Virus record (IMG/VR): IMGVR_UViG_3300030060_007507
Span: 1-32,193 of that record
Direction: 5' to 3' (one strand)
Length of the DNA: 32,193 nt
From: a virus
In this document: in pieces, positions 1,156 to 28,787 of the stretch
How positions within the stretch are numbered: position 1 is the first letter of the stretch
How the letters are laid out: the number at the start of each line of letters is the position of its first letter
The notes under the pieces: model-generated
The model's database searches: none
Told to the model about the DNA's origin: nothing
What the model saw: only the letters and a program-made list of their open reading frames with translations
Program-made: the position numbers and the translations under genes

Positions 1156-1158
1156 ATA
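1152..1158 (+). promoter_or_regulatory. Possible late-type promoter box CTAAATA
   Basis: CTAAATA overlaps the thyX stop codon and ends 23 nt before the ATG at 1182. This is nearly the same box and spacing (24-27 nt) seen before gp4, gp48, gp54 and gp26. It lies in one of the few gaps in an otherwise overlapping block. A seven-base AT-rich word can occur by chance, so this is tentative. Confidence 0.35.
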
Positions 1159-1181
1159 ACTTTACATAACTTTATATTGAT

Positions 1182-1436: not shown

Positions 1437-1440
1437 GAAA

Positions 1441-2882: not shown

Positions 2883-3132
2883 AGAACTAGAACAGGCAAT
2901 CGAGAACAAATTCTTGACACCTTCCAAATTTGCAATGGAGATCGAAAAGATTGTCGCTGCAGAACAAGATTTCAATTATATCGATGCCATTTGCTACTAT
3001 TGCGAAACTAACAATATTGAGGTAGAATCAGTATCAAAGTTAATCTCAAAACCATTAAAGGAAAGACTGAAGTGGGATGCAACGAGACTTAACTTTATGA
3101 AACCTACATCAAGAGCAAAATTACCTTTATAA
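2869..3132 (+). CDS. 33: gp33-like late promoter transcription accessory protein
   Basis: I choose ATG 2869 (METSKELEQAIENKF), which gives 87 aa and a 14-nt overlap with the nuclease gene. The in-frame extension to 2764 would overlap that gene by over 100 nt. In T4, gp33 is the coactivator that bridges RNA polymerase and the sliding clamp at late promoters. The cyanophage form ends in a conserved stretch, seen here as KLISKPLKERLKWDA and RLNFMKPTSRAKLPL. The position just before gp59 and gp32 fits T4-like cyanophage order. Recognition is from memory of the C-terminal pattern, so moderately high confidence. Confidence 0.75.
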   Translation: METSKELEQAIENKFLTPSKFAMEIEKIVAAEQDFNYIDAICYYCETNNIEVESVSKLISKPLKERLKWDATRLNFMKPTSRAKLPL

Positions 3133-3338
3133 TGCCCAAACAATCTGAATTAATGCATTATCGCTTACAAGCGATGTTGCGTGAACATACATTCCAAAAT
3201 TTAGAATATCTTGGAGTGAGACCTGATAGTATCGGTGTTGATCAACATTGGTATCGCATCGGAGAAGCAGAAGTTCCTGTCGATGCAATTGAAGAACTTG
3301 GTAATATGGAAGAAGTTGATGAAAGTGACACCATTTGA
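3132..3338 (+). CDS. Conserved cyanophage hypothetical protein (68 aa)
   Basis: A 68-aa protein with the run MPKQSELMHYRLQAMLREH followed by LGVRPDSIG and HWYRIGEAEVPVDAIEELG. It has an acidic end. The pattern looks like a small conserved protein that sits between gp33 and gp59 in T4-like cyanophages. Its start overlaps the gp33 stop by one base, and its end overlaps gp59 by 20 nt, so it is embedded in a translationally coupled string. No catalytic motif is visible and the function is unknown. Confidence 0.75.
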   Translation: MPKQSELMHYRLQAMLREHTFQNLEYLGVRPDSIGVDQHWYRIGEAEVPVDAIEELGNMEEVDESDTI

Positions 3339-3915
3339 AACGTATCAGTCATATCTATCAATGAAAAATCATTTTACAAATCGTAAGTATGATTTCTTTA
3401 GATATGGTGGAAAATCCAGTGCTACAGTTACTTCTTTTAATAAGAGGAAAGACAAGTATTGGTTTGAGAAAACATCAAGAAAATACTCTGATGATGAGAT
3501 TGTTAATTTTTTATTGGCAAACTTTGTGACTACAGATAATCCGAAAAATTTGTGGATTGGAGAGATTATTAATTCAGGAGAAAGAACATATTCTGATTGG
3601 ATGAGAAGACAGCAAAGTATATCATACTTATTCAAGGAACAGTCAAATGAACTATTAGATAATAATAGTTTAGATAAGGTATTAGAGTGTAAGAAAGGGC
3701 ATCCAATTATATTGAAGAGATTTTTAGGTGGAGATATATGTTTAGAGACATTTGTTATATTCGATATTATTTTTGCATTTTCAGAAAGGTTTGATAAAAA
3801 ACTCAAAGATCCTGTATGGGAAACCGTCAGTCTCAAAATTAAGAAGTACAAACCTTTCCTAAATATTAATGTGTTCCAATTTAAAAAAATCTTAAGGGAA
3901 ATTATTCATGAGTGA
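3319..3915 (+). CDS. 59: gp59 replicative helicase loader
   Basis: In T4, gp59 binds forked DNA and gp32 and loads the gp41 helicase. I place the start at ATG 3319 (MKVTPFETYQSYLSMKNHF), giving 198 aa, close to the T4 length of 217. The in-frame ATG at 3235 would add an unrelated stretch overlapping the previous gene. The opening TPFETYQSYLSMKNHF and RKYDFFRYGGKS segments match the N-terminal HMG-like part of the family. The protein is basic and aromatic, as expected for a DNA-binding loader. It lies one gene before gp32, its direct partner. Confidence 0.88.
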   Translation: MKVTPFETYQSYLSMKNHFTNRKYDFFRYGGKSSATVTSFNKRKDKYWFEKTSRKYSDDEIVNFLLANFVTTDNPKNLWIGEIINSGERTYSDWMRRQQSISYLFKEQSNELLDNNSLDKVLECKKGHPIILKRFLGGDICLETFVIFDIIFAFSERFDKKLKDPVWETVSLKIKKYKPFLNINVFQFKKILREIIHE

Positions 3916-4240
3916 ATTTTTTGATTCCAATATTGTCAAAGAAGGATTAGAAGATATCCAAAGCTTACAAGCTGAGATATATGCGAAAGCCTTCAAGTTT
4001 GGCACCATGAGTCGTGAAGACAAACTTGATCACATTGAAAAACTCACTAATTTACTAGAGAAACAAAGATTAATGTATACACGCATTAGTCTGTCAAAAG
4101 ATCCAGAAGCAATTGAACTAAAGGAGCACCTAGAACAATCAGTTCGACTACTTGGTTTTCCAGAGGGAACTGACATGACATTATTATTTTCTGGAATGTC
4201 ACATACAATTGACAATCTTAAGACACAACTTGACTCTTAA
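3908..4240 (+). CDS. DUF1825 family protein
   Basis: A 110-aa, largely helical protein. Segments such as EFFDSNIVKEGLEDIQ, LQAEIYAKAFKFGTMS, LLEKQRLMYTRISLSKDPEA and LGFPEGTDMTLLFSGM match my memory of DUF1825, a cyanobacterial family also carried by T4-like cyanophages. Its function is unknown. It overlaps the gp59 end by 8 nt, so it is co-translated with gp59, and it is followed by the gp32 promoter. The 3' end of the gene contains the -35 box of that promoter. The phage copy may mimic or modulate the host protein, which is speculation. Confidence 0.85.
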   Translation: MSEFFDSNIVKEGLEDIQSLQAEIYAKAFKFGTMSREDKLDHIEKLTNLLEKQRLMYTRISLSKDPEAIELKEHLEQSVRLLGFPEGTDMTLLFSGMSHTIDNLKTQLDS

Positions 4241-4258
4241 GCATTTATCTGATATAAT
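4230..4258 (+). promoter_or_regulatory. Early sigma70-type promoter for gp32
   Basis: TTGACT at 4230-4235 (five of six consensus bases) and a perfect TATAAT at 4253-4258 are separated by exactly 17 nt. The -35 box lies in the last codons of the DUF1825 gene and the -10 in the intergenic leader of gp32. The spacing and sequence fit host RNA polymerase recognition and would give gp32 an independent transcript. Confidence 0.85.
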
Positions 4259-4297
4259 CCAATTATCCAACGTATCCAATTTATCCGAGGTATCCAA
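4257..4297 (+). repeat. Nine-nt periodic leader repeat before gp32, possible autoregulatory operator
   Basis: The word ATCC recurs at 4257, 4265, 4274, 4283 and 4292, with spacings of 8, 9, 9 and 9 nt. Each copy sits in a TATCCAA-like unit. The array runs to the ATG at 4298 and spans the likely Shine-Dalgarno GAGG at 4287-4290. The stretch is AT-rich and looks unstructured. In T4, gp32 represses its own translation by cooperative binding to an unstructured leader, so this periodic array is a candidate operator. The regulatory role is inferred. Confidence 0.5.
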
Positions 4298-5194
4298 ATG
4301 TCTTTTAAAGACCTTAAAAAGCAGTCTAAACTTGGCTCTTTAACAGCAAAACTAGTTAAAGAAGTTGAGAAGATGAACAACACAGGCGGTAACACAGATG
4401 ACCGCATATGGAAATTAGATGTTGACAAAGGTGGTAACGGTTATGCTGTTATTCGGTTTTTACCAGCACCAGAAAATGAAGATCTACCATTTGTAAAACT
4501 ATATTCACACGCATTCCAAGGACCTGGCGGGTGGTATATTGAGAACTCACTTACCACACTAGGACAGAAAGACCCTGTTTCTGAGTACAACTCTTTACTC
4601 TGGAATAATGGAACTGATCTTGGGAAAGAAACTGCAAGAAAGCAGAAGCGTAAGTTGACATATGTATCTAACGTCTACGTAGTAAAAGACCCTGCAAATC
4701 CTGAGAACGAAGGTAAAGTATTCTTATTTAAGTATGGGAAGAAAATCTTTGACAAACTTACTGCAGCAATGCAACCTGAGTTTGAGGATGAAGAAGCAAT
4801 CGATCCATTCGATTTCTGGCAAGGTGCAAACTTTAAGTTAAAAGCAAAAAATGTTGCAGGTTATAGGAATTACGACAGTTCTGAGTTTGCTGCTGTTAGT
4901 CCACTTCTTGATGATGATGACGCTCTTGAGTCACTCTGGAAGAAGCAATTCTCTCTTGCTGAACTTGTTGCGAACGACCAGTTCAAGACTTATGAAGAGT
5001 TGAAGACTCGTTTAGACTACGTTCTTGGTAACAAGAAGACAGCAACTCCATCATTTGAGGTTGCTGATGAAGATAATGATCGTGGTGCTGCAGAGGAGTT
5101 AGTTACCGCTGCTGTATCAACAACACCATCTTCAGTTAACGAAGATGATGATGACGATGCATTATCGTACTTCCAAAAACTAGCGGAAGAATAA
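4298..5194 (+). CDS. 32: gp32 single-stranded DNA-binding protein
   Basis: gp32 coats ssDNA and organises replication and recombination. This 298-aa protein has a basic N-terminus (MSFKDLKKQSKLGSLTAK) for cooperativity. The central OB-fold core includes KLYSHAFQGPGGWYIEN (about residues 67-83). The acidic C-terminal tail (NEDDDDDALSYFQKLAEE) normally contacts partner proteins. In T4 the core binds zinc through one His and three Cys. Here the His of the SHAF segment is present but the Cys positions read IENS and DPVSEY, so the zinc site is gone. The length matches T4 gp32 (301 aa). It has its own promoter and a terminator 7 nt after the stop. Confidence 0.95.
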   Translation: MSFKDLKKQSKLGSLTAKLVKEVEKMNNTGGNTDDRIWKLDVDKGGNGYAVIRFLPAPENEDLPFVKLYSHAFQGPGGWYIENSLTTLGQKDPVSEYNSLLWNNGTDLGKETARKQKRKLTYVSNVYVVKDPANPENEGKVFLFKYGKKIFDKLTAAMQPEFEDEEAIDPFDFWQGANFKLKAKNVAGYRNYDSSEFAAVSPLLDDDDALESLWKKQFSLAELVANDQFKTYEELKTRLDYVLGNKKTATPSFEVADEDNDRGAAEELVTAAVSTTPSSVNEDDDDDALSYFQKLAEE

Positions 5195-5200
5195 TTACAT

Positions 5201-5224
5201 GGGGGTCAAACGACCCCCTTTTTT
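5201..5224 (+). terminator. Rho-independent terminator after gp32
   Basis: The stem GGGGGTC (5201-5207) pairs with GACCCCC (5212-5218) around an AAAC loop, followed by T5219-T5224. It lies between the convergent gp32 and gp53 genes. The T run is only on the + side, so it should stop the gp32 transcript but not the opposing one. Confidence 0.92.
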
Positions 5225-5945
5225 ATGGGATTAAATTAGTGGGTTCAGTTGATATAATTGAACCAGAAATATATCTAGAACTTTTACTATATTTTACAAC
5301 TTCTCTTAAATCATTTACAAAGGTTTGTACATAATCTGGTCGTAGGACATCTATTTTTCTTAACTTATCATTTTCAATTACTTCATTTTCTAGATTTGTC
5401 ACAGGATATGCAATATTATCAGTTACTACGGAATATTCATTTTTATCATCTAACTGTTTATTTCCTAATTGACTGATCACTGTGAAGCGATTTCCACCAA
5501 AACGCAATGCACTCCCGTCTATCTTGAAGTCTTTATCAACAATTAAATCTGGTGGAAGTATTTGACGATTCTCACTATCTAATATTTCATAAGTTTGATA
5601 ATGATGTATTGCATTCATTTTTTCTTCACTTCCATACTTTTCCAATGAAAGATTGTAAACTTGAAAGTCCTGTATAGGCCATTGTTGCGTAATGTTTGTT
5701 ATACCAGCTATCAATACAACAACATAGTCTAACTTAGAATTTTTATATAATCTTTCTGCAACTGTATCTGGTCTTTCTCCATCTTCAATTACATACTTAT
5801 TAAATAAGGATACATTGTCACTCAAATAATCAAATAACTTTGTACGACGAAATATATTTTTTATCGCAATATAATCAATGCTAGATTTTTTATGTGGTAA
5901 GGGTGACTGATAGAATATATCAGGTAATTCTCTAAAATATCCCAT
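5223..5945 (-). CDS. 53: gp53 baseplate wedge protein
   Basis: gp53 links neighbouring baseplate wedges to the hub during assembly. This 240-aa product starts MGYFRELPDIFYQSPLP and continues with NIFRRTKLFDYLSDN and a YVIEDGERPDTVAERLY segment. The last segment is the LysM-like part (about residues 48-75) seen in gp53 relatives. The T4 protein is 196 aa, and this one has a longer C-terminal extension. Its ATG overlaps the gp48 stop by one base, so the two are translated together. It is the last gene of the minus-strand block and ends against the gp32 terminator. Confidence 0.85.
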   Translation of the reverse strand: MGYFRELPDIFYQSPLPHKKSSIDYIAIKNIFRRTKLFDYLSDNVSLFNKYVIEDGERPDTVAERLYKNSKLDYVVVLIAGITNITQQWPIQDFQVYNLSLEKYGSEEKMNAIHHYQTYEILDSENRQILPPDLIVDKDFKIDGSALRFGGNRFTVISQLGNKQLDDKNEYSVVTDNIAYPVTNLENEVIENDKLRKIDVLRPDYVQTFVNDLREVVKYSKSSRYISGSIISTEPTNLIP

Positions 5946-7138
5946 TAGTATCCAACTCCTGGTAAACCTGGATCAGTATAATCCTCAAAGTATAATGGAT
6001 TTAATTCCTTGAATGTCAAATTCATCTGGATACTCACAGGCACACCAGTGTGATATGTTGCATATGTTCCAGAATTTGTATAATTAACGTTCATACCAGT
6101 TAAAGCACAATCTTTTATACTATTTAAAAATGGATGATCCGAACCTTTATGTATATACCGAAGTTGGAATACATCAGGAGCTCTTAAAAATATTCCACCC
6201 TGTCCACCTACGTCTGCATTTTTCTTCGCTGCCATTGAACTTTTAAGTGCTTTAATAATAAGTAAAACCTCTTTAGACTCCTCTTCAGTTCTTGGTGAAA
6301 AATTAATTGAAAAAGGAAACGTTCTTAAATTTACTCCACCAAATAATAACTCAAGATTGGAATTTAATATTACACCTGCAGATCGACCAAGAACACTATT
6401 TGGTCTTACATTACCTCCTAACGCATCGATTGCTCTACCTGCGATTGCAGCAGAGATTGCCCTTTGAGCTACCTCATCAATACCACCTAAGAGATTATCA
6501 GCATCTGCAAAAACTTCTTTTGCAGCTTTAAATGATTGCAAAGGATTTCTCATCACTTCAGAAGCTGCTGCCACACCAGCAAGTTGAAATATATTCATAT
6601 TATCTTCGCCCCATGTCACAACATTTGAGTCATTTACATCTTGGGGAATGGGTAGTTGAATATAATAAATTGCTTTTTGATTTTTCTGCCTATCAACTGC
6701 ACCTTGATTCTTTAATCTAGTAGTGCCTTTAATTGGTTGTGTAAGAAATGAACCCTTACCATCTGCAATTCTGTCCCCTGCATTAACTTTTTTTTCTGTT
6801 AGTGGATTGACACCATCAACTTTTGAGTAAACAAATTCTCTTTCAGAATCTAAACCAATTGAAGGATTAACATATTGAATACATTTAATAAGTAAATTAT
6901 CTCCTGTATCATTACTGGGACCTCTTGCTAAAGGGTATCCCATTTTCATTTTTACACCTGGAATCTCACCTGCTGATCTTGTTCTTCTTGCTGTTTGTTT
7001 TTTATTGTCTAGGGTTCTACCTGAATTTAAATCTACGCTACCAAATTTGACATTATCATTTCTCTCGTTATTAGTACCCTTTACCTTGGGTTTCGACATT
7101 TCAACAGCTTCTTTTACACCTAACGGACCAAATCCCAT
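5945..7138 (-). CDS. 48: gp48 baseplate tail-tube cap protein
   Basis: In T4, gp48 sits on the baseplate hub and, with gp54, starts tail tube polymerisation. This 397-aa protein begins MGFGPLGVKEAVEMSKPK. Its C-terminal half has FGGVNLRTFPFSINFSP, DVFQLRYIHKGSDHPFL and CALTGMNVNYTNSGTYATY, segments typical of tube-like proteins, ending in SIQMNLTFKELNPLY. It is similar in length to T4 gp48 (364 aa). A middle Ala-rich helix region (AAASEVMRNP, residues about 190-250) is present. A CTAAATA box 27 nt upstream suggests its own late promoter. It is coupled to gp53 downstream. Confidence 0.88.
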   Translation of the reverse strand: MGFGPLGVKEAVEMSKPKVKGTNNERNDNVKFGSVDLNSGRTLDNKKQTARRTRSAGEIPGVKMKMGYPLARGPSNDTGDNLLIKCIQYVNPSIGLDSEREFVYSKVDGVNPLTEKKVNAGDRIADGKGSFLTQPIKGTTRLKNQGAVDRQKNQKAIYYIQLPIPQDVNDSNVVTWGEDNMNIFQLAGVAAASEVMRNPLQSFKAAKEVFADADNLLGGIDEVAQRAISAAIAGRAIDALGGNVRPNSVLGRSAGVILNSNLELLFGGVNLRTFPFSINFSPRTEEESKEVLLIIKALKSSMAAKKNADVGGQGGIFLRAPDVFQLRYIHKGSDHPFLNSIKDCALTGMNVNYTNSGTYATYHTGVPVSIQMNLTFKELNPLYFEDYTDPGLPGVGY

Positions 7139-7160
7139 TATCGACTTATGTATACTTGTA

Positions 7161-7508
7161 TCAACTATTTAGTACGATTCTTCCAAAAGGAATAGTTCTT
7201 AAGTCACGCAACTCCATTTCATCTACTTGATATAGACCTCCAACTATTTCAGCAAAGGTATATTGTCTCATTTCACCCCAATGAAAGTTAAGACCCTTGA
7301 ATCCCCATTGAAATACATCAGTCACTGCGACTAATGGATGTAAATCATATCTTATACCTGGTGTTTTTGCACGATATACAAAAACATAGTAGTTCCCCTC
7401 CTCTGGTATGTTACTACCTTCTGTTAATACTCCTAATATATCTGTTGCTAAATCATCAGGATTTTCATTCCCGACTAGATTTTTCATTATGGGATCGATA
7501 CGACTCAT
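7161..7508 (-). CDS. Conserved T4-like cyanophage morphogenesis-block protein (115 aa)
   Basis: A 115-aa protein starting MSRIDPIMKNLVGNENPDD with a compact, mostly beta middle (NYYVFVYRAKTPGIRYDLHP, GFKGLNFHWGEMRQYTF) and a short end LRTIPFGRIVLNS. It lies between gp4 and gp48 on the same strand and overlaps the gp4 end by 4 nt. I recall proteins of this kind in the same place in cyanomyoviruses but cannot name a function. A virion assembly role is inferred only from position. Its 3' end contains the candidate gp48 late promoter. Confidence 0.75.
   Translation of the reverse strand: MSRIDPIMKNLVGNENPDDLATDILGVLTEGSNIPEEGNYYVFVYRAKTPGIRYDLHPLVAVTDVFQWGFKGLNFHWGEMRQYTFAEIVGGLYQVDEMELRDLRTIPFGRIVLNS
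7166..7172 (-). promoter_or_regulatory. Late-type promoter box for gp48-gp53
   Basis: CTAAATA on the minus strand (7172 to 7166) lies inside the last codons of the 115-aa gene and 27 nt before the gp48 ATG at 7138. Box and spacing match those found before gp4, gp54 and gp26. It is the cyanophage counterpart of the T4 late motif TATAAATA. Confidence 0.6.
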
Positions 7509-7939
7509 ATTCCTAACTCTTTTTCTGTGACTACCTTAAACTCCCACTGACGATCAGCACAGAACTCCCGTGCCATCTTCCATTTTGCTTGATTCTTTGC
7601 ATATTCATACGCTTCACGAATATATCCTTTCGTCTGTCTTTTTGGTTTGATTGGTGGTTTTGTTTGTTTTGCTGGTTTAACTTCAATTACATATCTTTTT
7701 ATTTTACCACCTCTCTCCTTGACTTTCATATAAAAATCTGGAAAGTAACGATGCACACGATTATCGACTGGTGAGCGATATGGTATTGCGATTTCTTCAC
7801 TTGCCCACTCTAAAATATTATCATTTTTATCACAATAGACCATGAATTTTCTCTCCCACAAAGATCTATAGATGATATTTGTTGGATCACCTTTATACTT
7901 TCTTGGAAAGGAGGGATAGTATTTTCCCTTATAAGACAT
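7505..7939 (-). CDS. 4: gp4 head completion protein, endonuclease-like fold
   Basis: T4 gp4 (also called gp50/65) is needed to complete filled heads so that tails can join. This 144-aa protein starts MSYKGKYYPSFPRKYKGD and has SLWERKFMVYCDKNDNILEW. RYFPDFYMK is followed by YVIEVKPAKQ, an FPD...ExK arrangement that matches the PD-(D/E)XK/TnsA-like fold seen in this family. The C-terminus is KWKMAREFCADRQWEFKVVTE. The length equals that of T4 gp4 (about 150 aa). It is the first gene of the minus block, with a CTAAATA box 24 nt upstream facing the gp54 promoter. Confidence 0.9.
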   Translation of the reverse strand: MSYKGKYYPSFPRKYKGDPTNIIYRSLWERKFMVYCDKNDNILEWASEEIAIPYRSPVDNRVHRYFPDFYMKVKERGGKIKRYVIEVKPAKQTKPPIKPKRQTKGYIREAYEYAKNQAKWKMAREFCADRQWEFKVVTEKELGI

Positions 7940-7946
7940 CTAAATA
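7940..7946 (+). promoter_or_regulatory. Late-type promoter box for the gp54 operon
   Basis: CTAAATA on the plus strand starts one base after the gp4 start codon and ends 25 nt before the GTG start of gp54. It is the plus-strand half of a facing pair with 7964-7970. The odd palindrome ACATATGATATGT lies at 7946-7958 between them. Confidence 0.65.
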
Positions 7947-7963
7947 CATATGATATGTAATTT

Positions 7964-7970
7964 TATTTAG
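7964..7970 (-). promoter_or_regulatory. Late-type promoter box for the gp4 operon
   Basis: TATTTAG on the plus strand reads CTAAATA on the minus strand. It ends 24 nt upstream of the gp4 ATG at 7939. It faces the plus-strand box at 7940-7946, so the two initiation regions overlap head-on. Confidence 0.65.
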
Positions 7971-7971
7971 A

Positions 7972-8829
7972 GTGCCAGCACCAAGACCAAGACAAATATC
8001 AGATATATTGCCAAGATTGCAGAACGTAGCTCAAACATCACAATACCTTGTTAAATTTCAATTGCCTGTTAGCAGTCTCCGAAGTTTTTTAAGAAGGAAG
8101 GGAGTTAATGATCGTTTTATAGCAGACGATATTGGATTGTTATGTAGCGAAGCATCTTTGCCTGGCAGTGCTTTAGCATCGGTTGATACTCGTGGTGATT
8201 ATCAGGGTGTGATAGAGAGATTTGCTCATACAAGAAATTTTACACAGATAAATCTACAATTTTATGTTGATAATAGTTATAAATCAATGAAATTTATTGA
8301 GCACTGGATGGAATATATTACTGGTGCTATTGAAGATCCTTCAAGAGATACTTATCATTTTAAGTTGCATTATCCAAGTGAATATAAATCAAATGAAACT
8401 CGTATTGTTAAATTTGAGAGAGATCATAATCGATTTTTAGAGTATAGATTTGTAGGATTATTTCCTTTATCATTATCATCAACGAAAGTATCATATCAAG
8501 GATCTCAAGTATTAAAAGCATCAGCGAGTTTTAGTTTTGACAGATATATTTGTGGTGAGTCCAACTCATTATCAAGAGCATTAAGAACCGCATTTAATGA
8601 GATATTTGGTAGAGGTAATCCTGCCAGAGATGGATTTTCAGTAAGTGATAATGAATTAGCAGCAGTTTTTAGAGCACGTAATCAAGTTTCTGAAAGTAAA
8701 AAAGATAATTTAACTGATTTATATAATGGTGGTGCTTCGTATCCAGTACAAACTTTAAGTGGAAATGGTTTGGGAATCGGTATGATAAATCCAGGTGGAG
8801 GTGGTTCAGAGACAAATCCATTTAGATAA
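7972..8829 (+). CDS. 54: gp54 baseplate tail-tube initiator
   Basis: gp54 caps the baseplate hub and starts tail tube assembly. The 285-aa product begins at GTG 7972 (MPAPRPRQISDILPRLQN). No in-frame ATG lies closer, because the ATG at 7955 meets a stop at once. Characteristic tube-fold segments are QYLVKFQLPVSSLR, LCSEASLPGSALAS and the internal beta strands INLQFYVDNSYKSMKF. T4 gp54 is 320 aa. The Gly-rich end (GNGLGIGMINPGGGGSET) is flexible. It opens the long hub operon from a late-type box 25 nt upstream. Confidence 0.87.
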   Translation: MPAPRPRQISDILPRLQNVAQTSQYLVKFQLPVSSLRSFLRRKGVNDRFIADDIGLLCSEASLPGSALASVDTRGDYQGVIERFAHTRNFTQINLQFYVDNSYKSMKFIEHWMEYITGAIEDPSRDTYHFKLHYPSEYKSNETRIVKFERDHNRFLEYRFVGLFPLSLSSTKVSYQGSQVLKASASFSFDRYICGESNSLSRALRTAFNEIFGRGNPARDGFSVSDNELAAVFRARNQVSESKKDNLTDLYNGGASYPVQTLSGNGLGIGMINPGGGGSETNPFR

Positions 8830-8833
8830 CCCC

Positions 8834-8841
8834 TATAAATA
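8834..8841 (+). promoter_or_regulatory. T4-style late promoter box TATAAATA before gp26
   Basis: A perfect TATAAATA, identical to the T4 late consensus, lies in the 37-nt gap after gp54. It ends 25 nt before the gp26 ATG at 8867. The same spacing is seen for the CTAAATA boxes at gp4, gp48 and gp54. Confidence 0.75.
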
Positions 8842-8866
8842 GTGACACTGAAGTGTTTAGCATATT

Positions 8867-9583
8867 ATGCCTTTACCAAAAATTTCGACTCCTACTTATG
8901 AGTTGGTTCTACCATCATCTGGTAGAAAAATAAAGTATAGACCATTTCTTGTTAAGGAAGAAAAGATTTTAATAATAGCATTAGAATCTCAAGATCAAAA
9001 ACAAATTGCAACAGCAATTAAACAGATTTTATCAGCATGTATCTTGACAAAGGGTACAAAAGTAGAAAAACTTTCTACATTTGATATTGAATATCTATTT
9101 TTAAATGTAAGAGGTAAATCTGTAGGTGAACAAATAGAAGTGATGGTGACTTGCCCTGATGATGGCAAAACACAAGTTCCATTGACAATTAACATTGATG
9201 CAATCAAAGTCAAAAAATCAAAGGATCACAAGACTGATATTAAACTTGATGAAAAATATACAATGAAAATGAGGTATCCTTCTTTAGATGAATTTATTAA
9301 AAGTAATTTTAGTGTTGACCAAATGAAGGTAGATGATACTTTTGATTTAATAGCATCTTGTATAGATCAAGTTTACTCTGAAGAAGAGTCATGGACACAA
9401 GAAGATTGTACACAAAAAGAATTATCTGAATTTTTAGAGCAACTTAATTCTGGACAATTTAAGGAAGTGGAGGAGTTCTTTAACACAATGCCCAAGTTAA
9501 CGCATACTGTTAAAGTAAAAAATCCGAATACTGGTGTAGAGAGTGATGTTCTATTGGAGGGATTGCAGAATTTTTTCGGGTAA
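8867..9583 (+). CDS. 26: gp26-like baseplate hub protein (T4_baseplate family)
   Basis: A 238-aa protein starting MPLPKISTPTYELVLPSSGR, followed by KYRPFLVKEEKILIIALES and LSTFDIEYLFLNVRGKSVGE. These segments are the familiar signature of the T4 baseplate/hub assembly family, annotated gp26 in cyanophages (T4 gp26 is 208 aa). CPDDGKTQVPLTINI is also typical. In T4, gp26 acts with gp28 and gp51 in hub assembly. The gene has a consensus late box upstream and is followed 2 nt later by a small ORF and the tape-measure-like genes. That layout resembles the tail chaperone position in other phages. Confidence 0.87.
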   Translation: MPLPKISTPTYELVLPSSGRKIKYRPFLVKEEKILIIALESQDQKQIATAIKQILSACILTKGTKVEKLSTFDIEYLFLNVRGKSVGEQIEVMVTCPDDGKTQVPLTINIDAIKVKKSKDHKTDIKLDEKYTMKMRYPSLDEFIKSNFSVDQMKVDDTFDLIASCIDQVYSEEESWTQEDCTQKELSEFLEQLNSGQFKEVEEFFNTMPKLTHTVKVKNPNTGVESDVLLEGLQNFFG

Positions 9584-9585
9584 GT

Positions 9586-9765
9586 ATGGCACATGAAGAT
9601 CTAGTGTCATACTATAAATTGAATTTTGCCTTGATGCAGCACCATAAATATAGTTTGACGGAGCTTGAGAACATGATACCTTGGGAGAGAGAAATTTATG
9701 TATCTCTACTCCAACAATATATTGAAGAGGAAAACTTAAAGGCACAACAAGAAAGAAATGGATGA
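9586..9765 (+). CDS. Small protein between gp26 and the tape-measure gene (59 aa)
   Basis: A 59-aa ORF from ATG 9586 to TGA 9763-9765 starting MAHEDLVSYYKLNFALMQHH. It contains SLTELENMIPWEREIYVSLL, which resembles the PWERE-type helical segment of small tail assembly chaperones. The C-terminus is charged and helical (EEENLKAQQERNG). It begins 2 nt after gp26 and overlaps the next gene by 8 nt, so it is clearly in the coupled operon. By position, just before a tape-measure-like protein, it could be an assembly chaperone or a hub assembly factor of the gp51/gp28 kind. The function is inferred and not recognised with certainty. Confidence 0.75.
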   Translation: MAHEDLVSYYKLNFALMQHHKYSLTELENMIPWEREIYVSLLQQYIEEENLKAQQERNG

Positions 9766-11410
9766 GGAACAGACTCTAGAATCGCCATTAGCGGGAAGTC
9801 TTCGAGGTATTAGAAGAAGTGTGTCTTCTAGTGTCTTTAATCCAGTGTCTCGTCCACAAACTCCAGAAACAGATGCAACATCAAATAATTTATTACAACA
9901 AAATCAATTAGCTCTCAGTAATATATCAAATCAATTAGAGGGAATAACAAAAACTGTCACATCACTTAATTTTTCTCTTCAAGGAATAAAAGAAAATTTA
10001 GCTGTAAGTGATACATTAGAAAAGCAAAGAGAGAATGAAAAGCAAAGAAGAGAAGATATATTAGCAGAACAAGGATTAAGAGAGGGTAAAGAGAGTGCCC
10101 TAGAGAAGAAAATACAATCATCTTTACAAAAACCTTTACAGGGAATCGCTGGAAAAACACAAAAAGCTTTATTTTCTTTACAAAGATTCTTTTTAATACT
10201 AGCAGGTGGATGGTTAACAAATGTAGGAATTGATTTACTACAAGCAATCGCAGAGGGAAATCAAGAAAAAATAAAGAAATTAAAACTTGTATTTACAGCA
10301 GGACTTGTAGGACTTGGTGCGACTGTCACAGCTATTAGTATAGGTATTGGAAATACTCTTAGAATCATTACAAGATTTGCTGCTAGTGCTGGAAGAATTG
10401 CGTTCGGTGGTTTCTTAAAAGGAGTTTTTACTGGTGTCAGAGCATTATTCTCAAAAACACTTGTACTTGTAGCAAAATTAGCACCAATATTATTGAGATT
10501 AGCAAAGATTCCATTTGGATTGATTGGTAAATTATTAGCAGGTCTTGGTATCTTTGCTGGAGCAGAGGTTAGTAGAGTAACAACTAAAAAAGGTGCAGAA
10601 GGGTTGTTAAATATGAAAAGAGTGAATATAGATGGTAAAGAAAAAATTATTACTGGTGCAGCTGATGACATAGCAATAGAGGGAACAAAAAAAGGAAAAG
10701 GATTCTTTAAAAATTTAAAAAATCCTTTCAAGGGTTTATTTAATTTTGGAGCAAAAGAAACAGTAAAACAAAGCACTAAGAATATTGCAAACAAGGGGTT
10801 AAAGGGTTTATTACAAAAATTAGCAGCACCTTTCAAAGGAAAGGGTGGATTCATTGGTGCCTTTTTAATTGATTTTTTAATATTTGGAGAGGATTTTGAT
10901 AAAGCTCTTGCAGGTGCAGCTGGGTTTATAGCAGGTGCAAAACTTGGTGCTGCTCTGGGTGCTTTTTTGGGTGGATTTATTGGTGGTATAGGTGCTGTAC
11001 CTGGTGCTGCGATTGGTGGTATAATTGGTGGATTGTTAGGTCCGAGCATTATGAAAAATTTATATGAAGGTGTTAAAGGCATGTTCGGATTTGGTAAGAA
11101 TAAAAAAAATAAATTATCAGATCCAGATTTAAGAGAATTGACAGGAGATGATCTTGTTGGAGAAAGAGAGGCAGTTGAATTAGGATTAATTGAACCAGTG
11201 CAAGTTGATAATTCATCAAGAGCAGACTTAATATCTCAAGATCCAGATGACACTCCAAATATCCTCAGTTTTAATCAAGCACAAAAAATGGGTGGTTTAA
11301 CTGGTAACATGCCAGTAGAGGGTGAGTCAAGTCAAATCCCATTTATACCATTTGATGAGGAAAATACTGCAGCACTTTTTGCAACATCAACATTTGGAGC
11401 ACCAGGTTAA
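9758..11410 (+). CDS. Tape-measure/hub-like protein, gp29-type (550 aa)
   Basis: The 550-aa protein has three parts. Residues 1-130 are helical and coiled-coil-like with many Gln, Glu and Lys. Residues about 145-290 contain several hydrophobic helices, including FFLILAGGWLTNVGIDLL. Residues about 365-440 form a Gly/Ala-rich membrane-like stretch (KLGAALGAFLGGFIGGIGAV). The C-terminus is acidic. This build is typical of tape-measure proteins, which set tail length and exit through the tube. T4 gp29 is 590 aa, close to this length, and the position before gp27 and gp5 fits. It shares a helix pattern with the next gene, so the two look paralogous. Confidence 0.65.
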   Translation: MDEEQTLESPLAGSLRGIRRSVSSSVFNPVSRPQTPETDATSNNLLQQNQLALSNISNQLEGITKTVTSLNFSLQGIKENLAVSDTLEKQRENEKQRREDILAEQGLREGKESALEKKIQSSLQKPLQGIAGKTQKALFSLQRFFLILAGGWLTNVGIDLLQAIAEGNQEKIKKLKLVFTAGLVGLGATVTAISIGIGNTLRIITRFAASAGRIAFGGFLKGVFTGVRALFSKTLVLVAKLAPILLRLAKIPFGLIGKLLAGLGIFAGAEVSRVTTKKGAEGLLNMKRVNIDGKEKIITGAADDIAIEGTKKGKGFFKNLKNPFKGLFNFGAKETVKQSTKNIANKGLKGLLQKLAAPFKGKGGFIGAFLIDFLIFGEDFDKALAGAAGFIAGAKLGAALGAFLGGFIGGIGAVPGAAIGGIIGGLLGPSIMKNLYEGVKGMFGFGKNKKNKLSDPDLRELTGDDLVGEREAVELGLIEPVQVDNSSRADLISQDPDDTPNILSFNQAQKMGGLTGNMPVEGESSQIPFIPFDEENTAALFATSTFGAPG

Positions 11411-22024: not shown

Positions 22025-24019
22025 ATGGTCAAGTATTTAAGTGGTAGAGTCAAAAGAACTCCGCAAGATCAACTAAAGGAGGATCGCTACGAATATCTTG
22101 GTCTGGAACAAGCAGAACCAAATTTAGCTGATCCACCCACTGCTTCTAATAGCATACCCACTGGTCAAAAATTTCAATTAATATCAATACCTGGTTTTCC
22201 TGGTAGAAGATATTGGGTGCCACTTGGTGGTGGTTTAACTCAAGGTTCAATCACTATACTTGATGAGGGAACACAAGTTAGTGGTACTAGTAGTATTACT
22301 GAACTTAATTTTGTTGGTGCTGCTGTTACTGCAGAGGCAAGTGTTCAGCATCCATCTGGACATCCAGGTATTGCTGCTACCATTACAGTTATTCCAGTCA
22401 CAGTTGGTGATAATCCACCTATAGGTGCTGGAGCAACAAATAATGGAGAATTATGGTGGGAGAGTGACACTGGAGACTTATATGTTTATTATGATGATGG
22501 TAACTCATCTCAATGGGTTATGGCAAATGCTGGTGGTAGAGGTGATAAAGGTGATAAAGGTGCTCCATCTTCTGTAGCAGGACCACCAGGACCAGCAGGT
22601 TCGCCAGGACCAGCAGGTAATCCAGGTGATAAAGGTGCTACAGGTTCTCCATCTACTGTAGCAGGACCACCAGGTCCAGCAGGTTCACCAGGTTCGCCAG
22701 GTCCAGCAGGTACGCCAGGTTCACCAGGTCCAACAGGACCAGTGCAAAAGGTTACAATTTCAGACACTCCTCCAACTTCTCCAACTCCAGCAAATGGTGA
22801 GTTATGGTGGGAGAGTGATACATTTGATCTGCACATTTATTACAATGATGGAAGTTCAGCACAATGGGTTTCTGTTACATCTAATGATGCATTAAAGGGA
22901 GAAAAGGGAGAACCAGTCACAGGACCACCAGGTCCAGCAGGTCCGCCAGGTGCAGCGTCCAACGTGGCAGGACCGCCAGGTGCAGCAGGACCACCAGGTT
23001 CACCAGGACCAGCAGGTAATCCAGCATCTAATACAACTTATGATTTAAGTGTACCTAATGCTACGACTAAAATTAGATTAGCAGGATCTGACTCCACAAA
23101 TGATGATGTCGAATTAGTCGGTGGTGGTGATATCTCTGTCACAAGGGATAATGCTAATAAACTTACAATTAGTGGGACAAATACACAATTGAGCACAGAG
23201 GATGTGCAAGATATTGTTGGAGGCATGGTTACTGGTAATACTGAAACAAATATAGCAGTTTCTTATGATGATACAAATGGAAAATTAGATTTCGTCTCCA
23301 CAGATACAGATACTAATACAGATACATTTACAGGATTAACTGATACCCCCAGTTCTTTCAGTGGTCAAGCTGGTAAAACAGTAAAGGTTAACTCTGGTGC
23401 AACTGCATTAGAATTTACGGATCTAGGTTCAGGACCACCAGGTCCAGCAGGATCACCAGGACCAGCAGGTTCACCAGGTCCAGCAGGATCGCCAGGTTCT
23501 GCGGGGTCTCCAGGTCCAGCAGGATCACCAGGTCCAGCGGGATCACCAGGTTCTGATGGAGATGATGGTTCAGCAGGTTCGCCAGGTCCAGCGGGATCAC
23601 CAGGTCCAGCAGGTTCGCCAGGTCCAGCAGGTAATCCATCTTCCGTAGCAGGACCACCAGGTCCAGCGGGATCACCAGGTTCAGCAGGACCACCAGGTCC
23701 AGCAGGTCCGCCAGGTGAATCTGGTATGGGTCTTAATACCAAAACATCAGCATATACTTTACAAATATCTGATGAACAAAAACTTATCACAACAACTGCT
23801 GCAATTACAGTTCCAAGTGGTGTATTCAGTGCATCTGATGCAGTTACGATATTTAATAATTCAGGCAGTGGTTTTTACATTTATCAAGGTTCAGGAACAA
23901 CCTTATATCTTGCAGGTACAGCAACGTCAGGAGATAGATTTTTAGCAGGTAGAGGAGTTGCAACTATAATATGTGTAGGAACTAATACTTTTGCAGTCAC
24001 GGGTGGAGGACTGACTTAA
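22025..24019 (+). CDS. Collagen-like tail fibre protein A with C-terminal knob (664 aa)
   Basis: The N-terminus ([33 protein letters not shown]) looks like a conserved cyanophage attachment domain. [15 protein letters not shown] module occurs twice, at about residues 140 and 260. Three collagen-like G-x-y blocks lie at residues about 183-239, 299-334 and 468-565, mostly of GPAGSP type. Between blocks 2 and 3 is a beta-rich linker ([13 protein letters not shown]). The last about 90 residues form a globular knob ([18 protein letters not shown]) that matches the end of fibre B at 25886-27292. It probably forms a trimeric stalk with a tip. The stop overlaps the next start by one base. Confidence 0.88.
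22573..23721 (+). repeat. Three GPAGSP-type collagen repeat blocks in fibre A
   Basis: Blocks lie at 22573-22741, 22921-23027 and 23428-23721. The commonest unit is 18 nt encoding GPAGSP, with alternating synonymous codons (GGA/GGT, GCA/GCG, TCA/TCG). Interruptions such as NPGDKGATG and [10 protein letters not shown] break the pattern without leaving the Gly-x-y register. They are GC-richer than the flanks. Confidence 0.92.
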
Positions 24020-25746
24020 TGGCAGTGGTCCAACAATACTTGTTTACAAGTAGTAGAGACTATGGTATTCTACACATAGAAAGTAATGGTAAAGCAAATT
24101 TATATATGCATCATTGTTTTGATGATGATGATAATTTATACGTAAGCACTCAAGATTATCAAGGATCACGTAATTATACTGGATATGGTGGTGGTAAAAT
24201 GACTCCCACTGCAATACTTAAAATTAATTCAAAAACTGGAGAGGTCATATGGCAGAAACACGTTGATATGTGGAAGGGTGGTGGAGATAATAGGGGCATA
24301 GACATCGATACTTCTGGAAATTTATATAGCGTTCACATGACAACTTCATTAATACCATACTCCGTATCTCAATTTAGTGGAGGTAATGGATATCAAGTAA
24401 TACTGCATAAGTGGAATGGGTCAAATGGTAATAATATTTGGAGTAGAGGATATGGTATATACAATTTAAATTATGCACAAACTGTAAATGGATATTATGT
24501 CTATCAGATTGATGATCTAGCTTGGACTCTTAATTGTATTGGGACATCATCAGTAACTATATTTGGTGAAAATAGAAAACCAGCACCAAATATTTACAGT
24601 CCTAGTGTGGGTTGTCAAAATTTAAACTTTGTAAACATTAGCAATTCAGGTTCATTAAATTCAGAGTATGAGTATACAAGAAGTTCTGCTTTTTGGGGTG
24701 GTGGTTATGTTTCAACTTGGTACGACTCAGTTATGGATGGTTCAGGTAATCATTATCTTGTAATGACAAGAAACAATTCAGTTGGTTACTATGGATTAGG
24801 AACAACTAATCAAAGAAATTCGAGTTTGGTCGTAATGAAATTAAATTCTTCTGGTGTTATTCAATATCAAAAACAATTTAGTTATATTAATTCTCTAATG
24901 GATAGTGGTGGAACAAGTCATGAAGGACAACGGATTGCAGTTGATGATAGTGGAAATGTTTATACAGGACATAGGGTCAGAAAAACACATAGTGGAGCTT
25001 ACTATGATCATTTTATAATCAAAAATAATTCCTCTGGCACTATACAGTGGGTTAGGAGATTGGGAGTTTCAACTCCCGTAAATACTCAAAATGAAAACAT
25101 AGTTGGTATCGTTGTTGATCCTGATGATAATAATTATTTCTATGTTTTAATCCAAACTAAAATAACCCTTAACAGCGTATGGGGTAGTAATAAAATAGCA
25201 TATGTTTTAGTGAAATATAACTCATCAGGAAGTATGCAATGGCAAAGAGTTATAGTTGGTCAGGCAACTAATGGTTCTGGACAGATGACTGTTACTAATA
25301 GTATGAGATCTCACGGTCACAGAAGGAGAGGTAGTTTTTACTTTAAGAAGAGGGGTATTTACATAAGTGTTCAATTTTATACAGGCACTAGCGGTTTAAC
25401 TGGTTATCATTGTGGATTTATTCATTTTCCAGTTGACACCTATCTGGTCGGTGATTGGACTATTCCAATGGGTTCTGCACAAACAAGTTACAAAATCTAT
25501 ATACGAGATATGTCTACTGGAATAGTAAGTCAAACTATTTCTTCATATGCATATTGGCAGAACATGGACTTTACTAGATATACTAACGTGGGTTCTGCAC
25601 CAGGTAAAACAAATTATAGTCCTACCAGTTACTCTGCTCAATATATGTCAAATCCAGTTAATGGTAATTCTACTAGCGATAGCATAGTATACGCTGCACC
25701 TTTTAACACATTTTCTGCATATACTGCAGGTTTACATACCGAATAA
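24019..25746 (+). CDS. Beta-propeller-like putative tip/receptor-binding protein A (575 aa)
   Basis: The protein begins [16 protein letters not shown]. It carries repeated blade-like segments of two kinds. One is the K-I/L-N-x-x-G-x-x-x-W/Y-x-K type: LKINSKTGEVIWQKHV, MKLNSSGVIQYQKQF, VKYNSSGSMQWQRVI. The other is the I-D-x-S-G-N-x-Y type: IDIDTSGNLYSV, VMDGSGNHYLV, VAVDDSGNVYTG-like. These recall SBBP/PQQ-type beta-propellers. The C-terminal 100 residues are Tyr/Ser-rich. It overlaps the collagen fibre stop by 1 nt and is followed by a 43-aa ORF. I infer a fibre-tip adhesin; no enzymatic residues are recognised. Confidence 0.75.
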   Translation: MAVVQQYLFTSSRDYGILHIESNGKANLYMHHCFDDDDNLYVSTQDYQGSRNYTGYGGGKMTPTAILKINSKTGEVIWQKHVDMWKGGGDNRGIDIDTSGNLYSVHMTTSLIPYSVSQFSGGNGYQVILHKWNGSNGNNIWSRGYGIYNLNYAQTVNGYYVYQIDDLAWTLNCIGTSSVTIFGENRKPAPNIYSPSVGCQNLNFVNISNSGSLNSEYEYTRSSAFWGGGYVSTWYDSVMDGSGNHYLVMTRNNSVGYYGLGTTNQRNSSLVVMKLNSSGVIQYQKQFSYINSLMDSGGTSHEGQRIAVDDSGNVYTGHRVRKTHSGAYYDHFIIKNNSSGTIQWVRRLGVSTPVNTQNENIVGIVVDPDDNNYFYVLIQTKITLNSVWGSNKIAYVLVKYNSSGSMQWQRVIVGQATNGSGQMTVTNSMRSHGHRRRGSFYFKKRGIYISVQFYTGTSGLTGYHCGFIHFPVDTYLVGDWTIPMGSAQTSYKIYIRDMSTGIVSQTISSYAYWQNMDFTRYTNVGSAPGKTNYSPTSYSAQYMSNPVNGNSTSDSIVYAAPFNTFSAYTAGLHTE

Positions 25747-25877
25747 TGATTACAACATCAGTCACAGTTGAAGAGTATATACCAGGTGGTAATCCTGATA
25801 GAGGAGAGACACCAGGATATATTAAAACGTCTAACGTCACAGTAGAATTACCAGAAAAAGAAGAGGGTTCTGAATAA
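25746..25877 (+). CDS. Small ORF of cassette A (43 aa)
   Basis: A 43-aa ORF reading MITTSVTVEEYIPGGNPDRG and ending LPEKEEGSE. Its ATG overlaps the previous stop by one base (TAATG), and it ends 8 nt before the next fibre gene. It is acidic with no membrane segment. It takes the same place as the 61-aa ORF after the second propeller gene, which supports it as a real cassette member. The sequences of the two small proteins are not obviously alike. Function is unknown. Confidence 0.6.
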   Translation: MITTSVTVEEYIPGGNPDRGETPGYIKTSNVTVELPEKEEGSE

Positions 25878-25880
25878 ATA
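25873..25880 (+). promoter_or_regulatory. Late-like AATAAATA box 5 nt before fibre B
   Basis: AATAAATA overlaps the stop codon of the 43-aa ORF and ends 5 nt before the ATG at 25886. The same box at the same distance precedes fibre C at 28799. If it were a true late promoter, transcription would start at about the ATG, giving a leaderless or nearly leaderless mRNA. Confidence 0.3.
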
Positions 25881-25885
25881 ATTCT

Positions 25886-27292
25886 ATGGCAGTAAATTTT
25901 CCCGACAGTCCCTCATTAAATCAGAATTTTACATCAGGTGGTGTGACATTCACATGGGATGGTTCTGCATGGAAGTTAAATTCTTCATCAGGAACGAAAG
26001 GGGATAAAGGAGATACTGGTGCAGGAGGACCACCAGGTCCAGCGGGTTCACCAGGTGCTGCATCAATAAACAATAATGCTGACAATAGAATAATAACTGG
26101 TTCCAATACCTCTGGTGAGTTAAATGCTGAATCAGATATAACTTTTGATGGAACTAAACTAAAATTAAATGATAATAAAAGGATTGACTTTGGTACTGAT
26201 AATGATTTACAAATATCTCATACTGATACTCTAGCAAGTCAAAATGATTCAAATGGAGACTCAATTGTCGATGGTGATACTTCATTTATAGAGGAGAGTG
26301 GAACGGGTGGTTTAATTTTTAAGACAAATGGTGGACCTGGTGATGGTGCGTATCAGTTCTTTGATGCAAGTTGGAGACCAATATTAAAATTATTCAGTGG
26401 TAATAGTGCAAGAGCTGCTTTATATCATGGAGGGATAGAAAAATTAATTACTGATTCAGCTGGTATTTCTATTACTGGTGGAATTAAAGATAAGGATGGA
26501 GATTTAGGAAGTTCAGGACAAGTTCTTTCTTCTACTGGTACTGCATTGAATTGGGTATCACCACAGACAGGTCCAACAGGATCACCAGGACCAGCAGGTT
26601 CACCAGGATCAGCGGGTTCGCCAGGTCCAGCAGGACCGCCAGGCAATAATACCTCAAACACATTTCTTACATTAACAGATACACCATCTTCGTATAGTGG
26701 ACAGACAGGTAAAACTGTCAAGGTTAATAGTTCAGGAAATGGATTAGAATTTACAGATCTAGGTTCAGGACCACCAGGTCCAACGGGGTCACCAGGTCCA
26801 GCAGGATCGCCAGGTTCTGGAGGATCACCAGGACCAGCGGGTTCACCAGGACCAGAGGGTTCTTCAGGTACAGCAGGACCACCAGGTGCACCAGGTGCAA
26901 CAGGATCGCCTGGTTCGTCTGGTTCACCAGGACCAGCAGGATCGCCAGGTGCAGCAGGACCACCAGGTCCAGCAGGTCCGCCAGGTAATGAAGGATTTTT
27001 AGCAAATAGTAGTAAATCAGGATCGTATACTTTGGTCGCTTCTGATGATCAAAAATTAATTAATACTAATAGTGGTGTTACAGTTCCTAGTGGAGTATTC
27101 AGTGCACCTGATGCAGTAACCATAGTCAATAATAGTACAGGAAACATCACAATAACTCAAGGAAGTGGAGTTACAATGTATTTTGCTGGTTCATCAACCA
27201 CAGGAAATAGAGTTCTTGCACAAAAAGGTATTGCTACTTTAGTTTGTATATCAAATAATAATTTTGTTATTAGTGGTGCTGGATTAAGTTAA
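25886..27292 (+). CDS. Collagen-like tail fibre protein B with C-terminal knob (468 aa)
   Basis: The N-terminus NFPDSPSLNQNFTSGG followed by FTWDGSAWKLN is a common phage fibre head module, also used by fibre C. Collagen-like blocks lie at residues about 40-57, 228-253 and 293-368. A DSNGDSIVDGDTSFIEES region and a beta linker lie between the first two. [19 protein letters not shown] is shared with fibre A just before the last block. The C-terminal about 90 residues ([20 protein letters not shown]) match the fibre A knob. It probably forms a trimeric stalk. It overlaps the second propeller gene by 1 nt. Confidence 0.88.
   Translation: MAVNFPDSPSLNQNFTSGGVTFTWDGSAWKLNSSSGTKGDKGDTGAGGPPGPAGSPGAASINNNADNRIITGSNTSGELNAESDITFDGTKLKLNDNKRIDFGTDNDLQISHTDTLASQNDSNGDSIVDGDTSFIEESGTGGLIFKTNGGPGDGAYQFFDASWRPILKLFSGNSARAALYHGGIEKLITDSAGISITGGIKDKDGDLGSSGQVLSSTGTALNWVSPQTGPTGSPGPAGSPGSAGSPGPAGPPGNNTSNTFLTLTDTPSSYSGQTGKTVKVNSSGNGLEFTDLGSGPPGPTGSPGPAGSPGSGGSPGPAGSPGPEGSSGTAGPPGAPGATGSPGSSGSPGPAGSPGAAGPPGPAGPPGNEGFLANSSKSGSYTLVASDDQKLINTNSGVTVPSGVFSAPDAVTIVNNSTGNITITQGSGVTMYFAGSSTTGNRVLAQKGIATLVCISNNNFVISGAGLS
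26567..26987 (+). repeat. GPAGSP-type collagen blocks in fibre B
   Basis: Two larger blocks lie at 26567-26645 and 26764-26987, and a short one at about 26003-26057. Units are the same [12 protein letters not shown] type as in fibre A. The second block begins with a 39-nt stretch (26744-26782) that differs at one base from 23408-23446 in fibre A. Confidence 0.9.
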
Positions 27293-28602
27293 TGGCATTT
27301 ACACAACAATTCATACCTAGTCCAAAAAGAGCAGATGCAGCTGGATTTCAACTGCGTCCAACTAATGCTTCTTTTGGTGGAACTGAGGTTGAGGGTAGCA
27401 CAACAGGTTATGGTATACCTCAACACTCATGGCAAAATAGTGGAACCACTATGGTTAGTGACGGAGTTGAATTATTAATACCTGATCATACAACAGATGG
27501 TAGATGGTTGGCAGTTCATCAAGGTTCGATGACTGGATCAGGTTTTTCATATCCAAGAGAATTAGCTGGTATGATGACCACAAATGGTGGAGATAATTGG
27601 AGTAGTGGTGCATTAACTTTTCCAACTTATAATTCAGGTGCTTTTACAAAGATGTATGATTGGGATACTAATGGAAGCACATCATCACCTAAGTGGATGA
27701 TAACTGGTGGTGCTTATCCAAATTACGATACAACTAATTCTGGTGGTAGTAATATTGCTTGTTATTTTTCAACAAATTTTACAACTTGGTCACGTATAAG
27801 TGTTGATAGAGATAATACTTTCGGAGGAAATACAATAAATCAATATATAAGTGCTGTTTGTTATAGTAATGGATATTGGGTTGTTGGTAATGGTAGAACT
27901 GGTAAAGTTAATAGATCAAATAATGATGGTTCATCTTGGGGTTCTTGGGTTTCAGGAGCAAATTCTTTCAGACCTGTTTACGCTTTAACATCAAATGATG
28001 GTGGAAGTCAAGTTGTATGTGCTGGACAGGGATATATGGCTTATTCCAGTAATAGTGGTCAATCATTTACTACATCAAGTTTATCTAACGGGAGTGATAG
28101 AATTCATAATTTAATTTACATACCTGGATATGTGTCTGTTGGAAATACACAAAAAGGTCCTGGCGTTTGGGTCGGTGGTGGTGGAAGATATAATACTGGA
28201 TATCAAAATATGTTTTCAAGTGTAGAAGTTTATTATTACTCAACTGATGGTCAAAATTGGACTTTTATTGATACGGCTAACGATACTAATTTAGCAACTA
28301 GAACTCCTACTTTTGGAAATAAATGGAGGATTGTTGACTCAAGGGATGGAAAATTATTTACTTGGGGAGACGATGGTAGTGGTGGTAACGGATATAAATT
28401 TTATATGAGTGACATGTCTCTTACAAACTGGACTGAAATTACAAGTCAAAACCCATTTACAGGGACTACAGGTAATTCTTACCCTCAAACATACGCTGAA
28501 AAAGGTGATAATTATAGAAATGGTAGATATATGGTTGGATCAGGAATGGGTAGTGCATATAGAAATGCTGCTGGAAGAATAGCATATCTCGACATACTAT
28601 AA
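27292..28602 (+). CDS. Sialidase-like (Asp-box) beta-propeller putative tip protein B (436 aa)
   Basis: It starts MAFTQQFIPSPKRADAAGF. Several Asp-box-like turns are visible: TTNGGDNWSSG, RSNNDGSSWGSW, YSSNSGQSFTTS and STDGQNWTFI. Each follows the S/T-x-D/N-x-G-x-S/T-W pattern of BNR/sialidase-type propellers. I see no convincing sialidase catalytic Arg triad or Tyr/Glu pair, so binding is more likely than hydrolysis. The N-terminal M-A-x-x-Q-Q motif resembles that of propeller A. The gene overlaps the fibre B stop by 1 nt and its own stop overlaps the 61-aa ORF by 1 nt. I infer a fibre-tip adhesin. Confidence 0.75.
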   Translation: MAFTQQFIPSPKRADAAGFQLRPTNASFGGTEVEGSTTGYGIPQHSWQNSGTTMVSDGVELLIPDHTTDGRWLAVHQGSMTGSGFSYPRELAGMMTTNGGDNWSSGALTFPTYNSGAFTKMYDWDTNGSTSSPKWMITGGAYPNYDTTNSGGSNIACYFSTNFTTWSRISVDRDNTFGGNTINQYISAVCYSNGYWVVGNGRTGKVNRSNNDGSSWGSWVSGANSFRPVYALTSNDGGSQVVCAGQGYMAYSSNSGQSFTTSSLSNGSDRIHNLIYIPGYVSVGNTQKGPGVWVGGGGRYNTGYQNMFSSVEVYYYSTDGQNWTFIDTANDTNLATRTPTFGNKWRIVDSRDGKLFTWGDDGSGGNGYKFYMSDMSLTNWTEITSQNPFTGTTGNSYPQTYAEKGDNYRNGRYMVGSGMGSAYRNAAGRIAYLDIL

Positions 28603-28787
28603 TGTATTATATTCAAAAATCAACAACTGAAAATAGTATTACCACATATCATTATTATGATGGGATTAGTTGGTCAACTAATTTTTATTCTAAAAAAGAA
28701 TATGAAAACTCAAGTGAATGTGATACAATTATTTCTGATGCAGGTGAAGATCCAGATTGGACTGATGTTGAAATTAAATCCATCTAA
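28602..28787 (+). CDS. Small ORF of cassette B (61 aa)
   Basis: A 61-aa ORF (MYYIQKSTTENSITTYHYYD) rich in Tyr, Ser and acidic residues, with no membrane segment. Its start overlaps the propeller B stop by one base (TAATG), and it ends 11 nt before fibre C. It occupies the same cassette position as the 43-aa ORF after propeller A. It could be a fibre assembly helper, but nothing in the sequence shows that. Function unknown. Confidence 0.65.
   Translation: MYYIQKSTTENSITTYHYYDGISWSTNFYSKKEYENSSECDTIISDAGEDPDWTDVEIKSI

Follow-up and report, generated by a model that had tools for sequence, protein, structure and literature searches.

Each of two fibre-adhesin gene pairs in a T4-like marine myovirus probably encodes a two-protein tail-fibre tip, in which a knob at the C-terminus of the fibre serves as a socket, and a short N-terminal tag on the product of the next gene serves as the plug of an exchangeable adhesin. 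This reading builds on a conserved gene order, the C-terminal position of the knob, a tag common to otherwise unrelated adhesins, the reciprocal association of tag and knob, and swaps between near-identical genomes.

Two fibre-adhesin pairs in a marine myovirus

The window, by which we mean the whole stretch of 32,193 nucleotides that was analysed, belongs to a virus record of 48.6 kb, and the nearest relatives of its first 20 kb are Prochlorococcus and Synechococcus phages. The original prediction described two tandem sets (22025-25877 and 25886-28787), each made up of a collagen-like fibre with its knob, a propeller-like protein and a small ORF. The six ORFs are found at these positions, all on the plus strand, and TAATG with its one-base overlap occurs at all four internal junctions. 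The first fibre, fib1 (22025-24019, 664 aa; Pfam Collagen, 3.8e-23), resembles at its N-terminus PSSM2_023 of phage P-SSM2, a fibre gene in matching position, with synteny extending to the phrog_1276 gene just before it. Its last 100 residues form knob 1 (23717-24016; profile match E 2.0e-43), which is predicted to be all-beta. The second fibre, fib2 (25886-27292, 468 aa; Pfam Collagen, 2e-16), likewise ends in a knob (knob 2, 26990-27289; profile match E 2.3e-45). Both fibres are thus collagen-like with homologous C-terminal knobs, as had been proposed, the last ~100 residues being 52% identical.

The genes that follow encode the candidate tip adhesins prop1 (24019-25746, 575 aa) and prop2 (27292-28602, 436 aa). 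Both start at position -1 relative to the fibre stop and both begin with a QQ-containing tag that is common to partners with unrelated bodies: prop1 starts MAVVQQYLF (putative plug 1, ten residues, 24019-24048) and prop2 MAFTQQFIP (putative plug 2, MAFTQQFIPS, 27292-27321). They are followed by small ORF 1 (25746-25877, 43 aa) and the unrelated small ORF 2 (28602-28787, 61 aa), respectively.

The two adhesins had been assigned to different propeller types. For prop1 the match to SBBP lies just at the Pfam cut-off (20.6 against 20.5 bits), and a homologue in locus L066 matches SBBP clearly (6.1e-13); its closer relatives are found in L002 (96% identity) and in L003 and L051 (48-49%). For prop2 the pointer to a propeller consists only of three Asp-box-like motifs, compared with 0.19 expected in shuffled sequences (p=0.0005), and we regard it as possibly an Asp-box propeller. 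No relative of prop2 was found by Pfam family, in the PDB, in two viral scans or by tblastn. Structure prediction gave a confident all-beta model for the knob, whereas the single-sequence AlphaFold model of prop2 was unusable (pLDDT 29.7). The bodies of prop1 and prop2, SBBP and Asp-box-like with 10-14% glycine, are not polyglycine sandwiches; only some of the relatives' adhesins are glycine-rich.

Several further features of the region were observed. A short N-terminal module is common to fib2 (25886) and the collar fibre (28799), and also opens many fibres in L002, L030 and L051; the N-terminus of fib1 is different. Two genes on the minus strand (5223-7138) are oriented opposite to the neighbouring structural genes, and one of them is a homologue of the baseplate tail tube cap. 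Just beyond the window's end, a run of undetermined bases (L150:381-743) lies within the ORF that starts there.

The knob family and the gene behind it

The knob, of about 100 residues, is found at fibre C-termini in unrelated podo-, sipho- and myoviruses. Searches by tblastn recovered it at the C-terminus of fibres from Synechococcus phages S-B28 (Autographiviridae) and S-CBS2, which we take to be a siphovirus, as well as from Sphaerotilus phage vB_SnaP-R1, Limnohabitans phage YIMV22061, an uncultured spring phage and marine single-cell viruses. Behind these fibres the next gene starts at -1 or -4 relative to the stop codon, with L056 (+11) as the sole exception. Scanning viral contigs with a narrower alignment, A3, gave 80 loci, and a gene start at -4 to +11 was present in all 78 with readable DNA. 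The final tally comprises 105 distinct knobs, 102 of them testable by virtue of readable downstream DNA, in a sample that was picked by similarity to the query from scans seeded by this family and that includes near-copies. The knob lies no more than three residues from the protein end in 100/102, and a downstream ORF starts between -8 and +50 relative to the stop in 99/102 (at -1 in 58, -4 in 14 and +1 in 14). The exceptions to the rule are L234, the second knob of L090 and the divergent L154; the L090 knob (5117-5416) has no adjacent tagged partner.

The one-base overlap is commoner at this junction than elsewhere: after removal of redundancy it occurs at 42 of 63 knob junctions, compared with 106 of 837 other junctions of the same loci. 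Such conserved overlaps could also be explained if programmed frameshifting or readthrough made the adhesin the C-terminal part of the fibre. However, no single change of frame could account for the observed offsets (-4, -1, 0, +1, +11 and +18), an initiator codon always opens the tag irrespective of the offset, and a fusion of knob and adhesin in a single ORF was found in none of the 105 distinct knobs. We therefore consider this explanation very improbable and treat the adhesin as a separate protein.

AlphaFold2, given 60 knobs, predicts a confident all-beta domain (pLDDT 97.3). The knob profile gave only chance matches against PDB sequences, and a fold search of BFVD returned 218 matches at E<=0.001. 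The best PDB fold match is the capsid spike of Pseudomonas phage Pa223 (9ny6, TMq 0.73), and a baseplate protein of Klebsiella phage KP1/Lilla1 also matches (9f4a, TMq 0.63), both with only 12-14% sequence identity to the knob. Divergent relatives of the knob fold, PSSM2_027 of P-SSM2 and ctGfd272, have no tagged partner, which suggests that the pairing is carried by the canonical knob family and not by the fold alone.

Unrelated partner proteins with a common tag

Clustering by body sorts the 71 distinct partner proteins into 29 unrelated groups. Their Pfam matches comprise SBBP, RCC1 (3.5e-57), FG-GAP, SPRY with DUF7483, Laminin_G_3 (LamG) and F5_F8_type_C, and further folds include fn3, a WD40-like propeller and Gly_rich_2; SBBP, RCC1 and FG-GAP are propeller types as well. 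DUF7483 forms the body of tagged adhesins in L070 and L131, which suggests that it is a phage receptor-binding domain. The proposal that a collagen stalk presents an exchangeable adhesin finds support well beyond the window; its restriction to propellers does not, as the partner can have almost any adhesin-type fold.

This diversity bears on the question of whether the downstream protein might instead act as an assembly chaperone of the tail fibre, released once it has folded the knob. Chaperone genes often lie directly behind fibre genes, as in Pam3 gp24-gp25 (PMC9608196), and the partner in L058 partially matches a "tail fiber assembly" PHROG. However, a chaperone for one knob of ~100 residues would be expected to belong to one family, and the 29 clusters of partners are unrelated and include lectin, propeller and glycine-rich folds. 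Neither of the window adhesins nor any of 20 partner proteins matches a chaperone or Tfa-family domain in Pfam, and the partners in L060 and L062 match "tail fiber protein; host specificity". A chaperone role is therefore quite unlikely, and the adhesin reading is preferred.

What most partners have in common is only the short N-terminal tag, which resembles MSIxQQMLL. A strict version of the tag occurs in 22/29 partner clusters, compared with 29/572 background gene starts, and position 5 is Q or N in 24/29 clusters; the tag is short, and Q or N is absent from positions 4-6 in 11/99 partners. Across unrelated bodies, knob similarity correlates weakly with tag similarity (r=0.21, p<0.0005; r=0.235, p=0.02 with one partner per cluster).

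A reciprocal search, in which viral contigs were searched with the DNA pattern of the tag and the knob was not used, found 91 stretches, and the analysis covered the 80 loci listed from them. Among these 80, 48 are real ORFs, and 46 of the 48 lie directly after a knob. Of the remaining two, one (L209) follows a knob that is cut by the contig edge, and the other (L234) has its knob elsewhere on the contig, the only case of a knob and a tagged adhesin on one contig that are not adjacent. None of the 32 spurious short ORFs among the listed loci is associated with a knob. In 84,980 prokaryote genomes no relatives of the knob were found, and the tag gave 15 chance matches, none of them in an ORF longer than 47 aa. 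At the sensitivity of these searches, the module is viral and does not appear in prophages.

These results also bear on the notion that fibre and adhesin genes are merely co-inherited neighbours in a hypervariable host-recognition island, whose products do not touch, with the overlap reflecting genome compactness and the likeness of the N-termini a translation signal. Such islands are known (PMC3909814; PMC7029224), overlaps of -1 or -4 are common at other junctions of these loci (181/837), and a Shine-Dalgarno-like sequence is present in 16/33 knob ends. However, the amino acids of the tag are conserved beyond the start region, the tag recurs in adhesins that are placed behind another adhesin, a tag search made without the knob predicts a knob, and the pairing persists in podo-, sipho- and myoviruses. 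Mere neighbourhood is consequently unlikely, and a physical pairing of knob and tag accounts better for these observations.

Adhesins placed behind other adhesins occur in arrays. In L147 (G005; 1162-10700) and L151 (G004; 1002-10655, reverse strand) a knob protein of 169 aa is followed by three tagged proteins of 986, 1509-1549 and 502-503 aa. The corresponding knob protein in L148 (MH319765; 986-7739, reverse strand) is followed by two. Among 76 loci surveyed, three (L085, L088 and L094), which form one related group, have two tagged proteins in direct succession.

Exchange between near-identical genomes

Comparison with L003 illustrates the exchange of adhesins. L003 is nearly the same virus as the window (99% identity in the upstream gene, 92% in fib1 and 89% in the collar fibre). 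In its first set prop1 is only 49% identical, yet knob 1 is 97% and small ORF 1 100% identical. At the DNA level the two genomes are near-identical on either side of prop1, and identity inside prop1 falls to ~40-85%, mostly ~50-60%. In the second set the knobs share 55% identity, the adhesin is a propeller of a different type (SBBP), and the small ORF, of 77 aa, is unrelated; here DNA identity with the window drops where the knob begins, at 26980, and recovers at 28780. In L002 the collagen part is ~50% identical to the window, and the stretch that comprises the knob, prop1 and most of small ORF 1 is 83-100% identical. The adhesin alone, or the knob together with the adhesin, has therefore been exchanged between fibres that are alike in other respects.

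Origin of the two sets and the small ORFs

In a phylogeny of 60 knobs, knob 1 groups with L002, L003 and L051, and knob 2 is sister to the knob of L106, which is paired with an FG-GAP protein. Knobs 1 and 2 share one clade of nine sequences, to which L065, L066 and the second L003 knob also belong. The two knobs are not sisters, on which ground a recent tandem duplication was rejected; the placement in the tree reveals the two sets as relatives and not as a fresh tandem copy. The description of the second set as a duplicate was therefore abandoned, the N-terminal halves of fib1 and fib2 being different as well.

Small ORF 1 travels with knob 1 and prop1, and is kept at 95-100% in L002, L003 and L051. 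No homology was detected among small ORF 1, small ORF 2 and the 77-aa ORF that occupies the position of small ORF 2 in L003. Of the 76 tagged adhesins surveyed, only 4, all from the lineage of the window, have a small overlapping ORF behind them, and on this ground the three-gene cassette was rejected as a general unit. The small ORFs being non-homologous and rare, the conserved unit comprises two genes, the fibre with its knob and the adhesin, and the small ORF is outside the general system. In relatives, the order of fibre-knob and adhesin that the original prediction had anticipated is conserved, and the third gene is not.

Comparison with known systems

In phages T2, PP01 and Salmonella phage S16, a separate adhesin, gp38, sits on the tip of the trimeric fibre protein gp37 and contacts it via its N-terminus; the gp38 bodies are glycine-rich, and the N-terminal 113 residues of PP01 gp38 had to be exchanged to fit T2 (PMC12892980). 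As in T2 and S16, a separate adhesin gene lies directly downstream of the fibre gene here too. Unlike in gp38, the common part comprises only ~10 residues, and the bodies have many folds, not one. The knob profile, the window adhesins and three glycine-rich partners have no sequence match in the PDB that would indicate homology to gp37 or gp38. By analogy, the best reading is that the module works like gp37-gp38 without a relation in sequence, the knob presumably docking with the tag.

The cyanophage Pam3 also combines a fibre that has a glycine-rich tip with an adjacent partner gene; however, there the fibre itself contains the glycine-rich domain, and gp25, a Tfa-type chaperone, was not detected in virions (PMC9608196). 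Unlike gp25, the window adhesins and the 20 scanned partners contain no Tfa-family domain. Metaviromic islands and host recognition clusters of marine phages contain hypervariable fibre and lectin-like genes, and in marine T4-like phages the host recognition cluster adjoins VrlC; in the sections available, these accounts address variability and domain content and do not describe a pairing of knob and tag (PMC3909814; PMC7029224). We found no description of such a pairing in the open-licence literature searched.

A proposed socket and plug for exchangeable adhesins

In the mechanism that we propose, the collagen fibre would end in a small all-beta knob, the standard socket. The gene behind it, probably coupled in translation through the 1- or 4-base overlap, would provide a separate adhesin, whose first ~8-10 residues would dock on the knob as the standard plug. 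The body of the adhesin, be it a propeller, lectin-like or glycine-rich, would bind the host surface and could be replaced wholesale, leaving the rest of the fibre and virion unchanged. In this mechanism we infer the physical docking and its stoichiometry, a trimeric state of the knob, receptor binding and the presence of both proteins on the virion. The virus of the window would have two such tips with different adhesins; two receptor specificities per virion, as originally suggested, would fit the sequences of two different knob-adhesin pairs on fibres with differing N-termini. More tentatively, the docking might be a standard across unrelated lytic phages, such that any tagged adhesin fits one knob; phages with arrays might then produce virions with mixed or alternative tips, and obtain several host specificities from one fibre. 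We consider this extension rather doubtful.

It has long been asked how phages can alter host binding while leaving the fibre as it is. If the proposed mechanism is correct, a standard knob and a tag of ~10 residues would be a simple answer across podo-, sipho- and myoviruses, and a phage may change its host by changing one gene. Because tag and position identify them, adhesins would also become recognisable in the genomes of uncultured phages, even where their folds are new.
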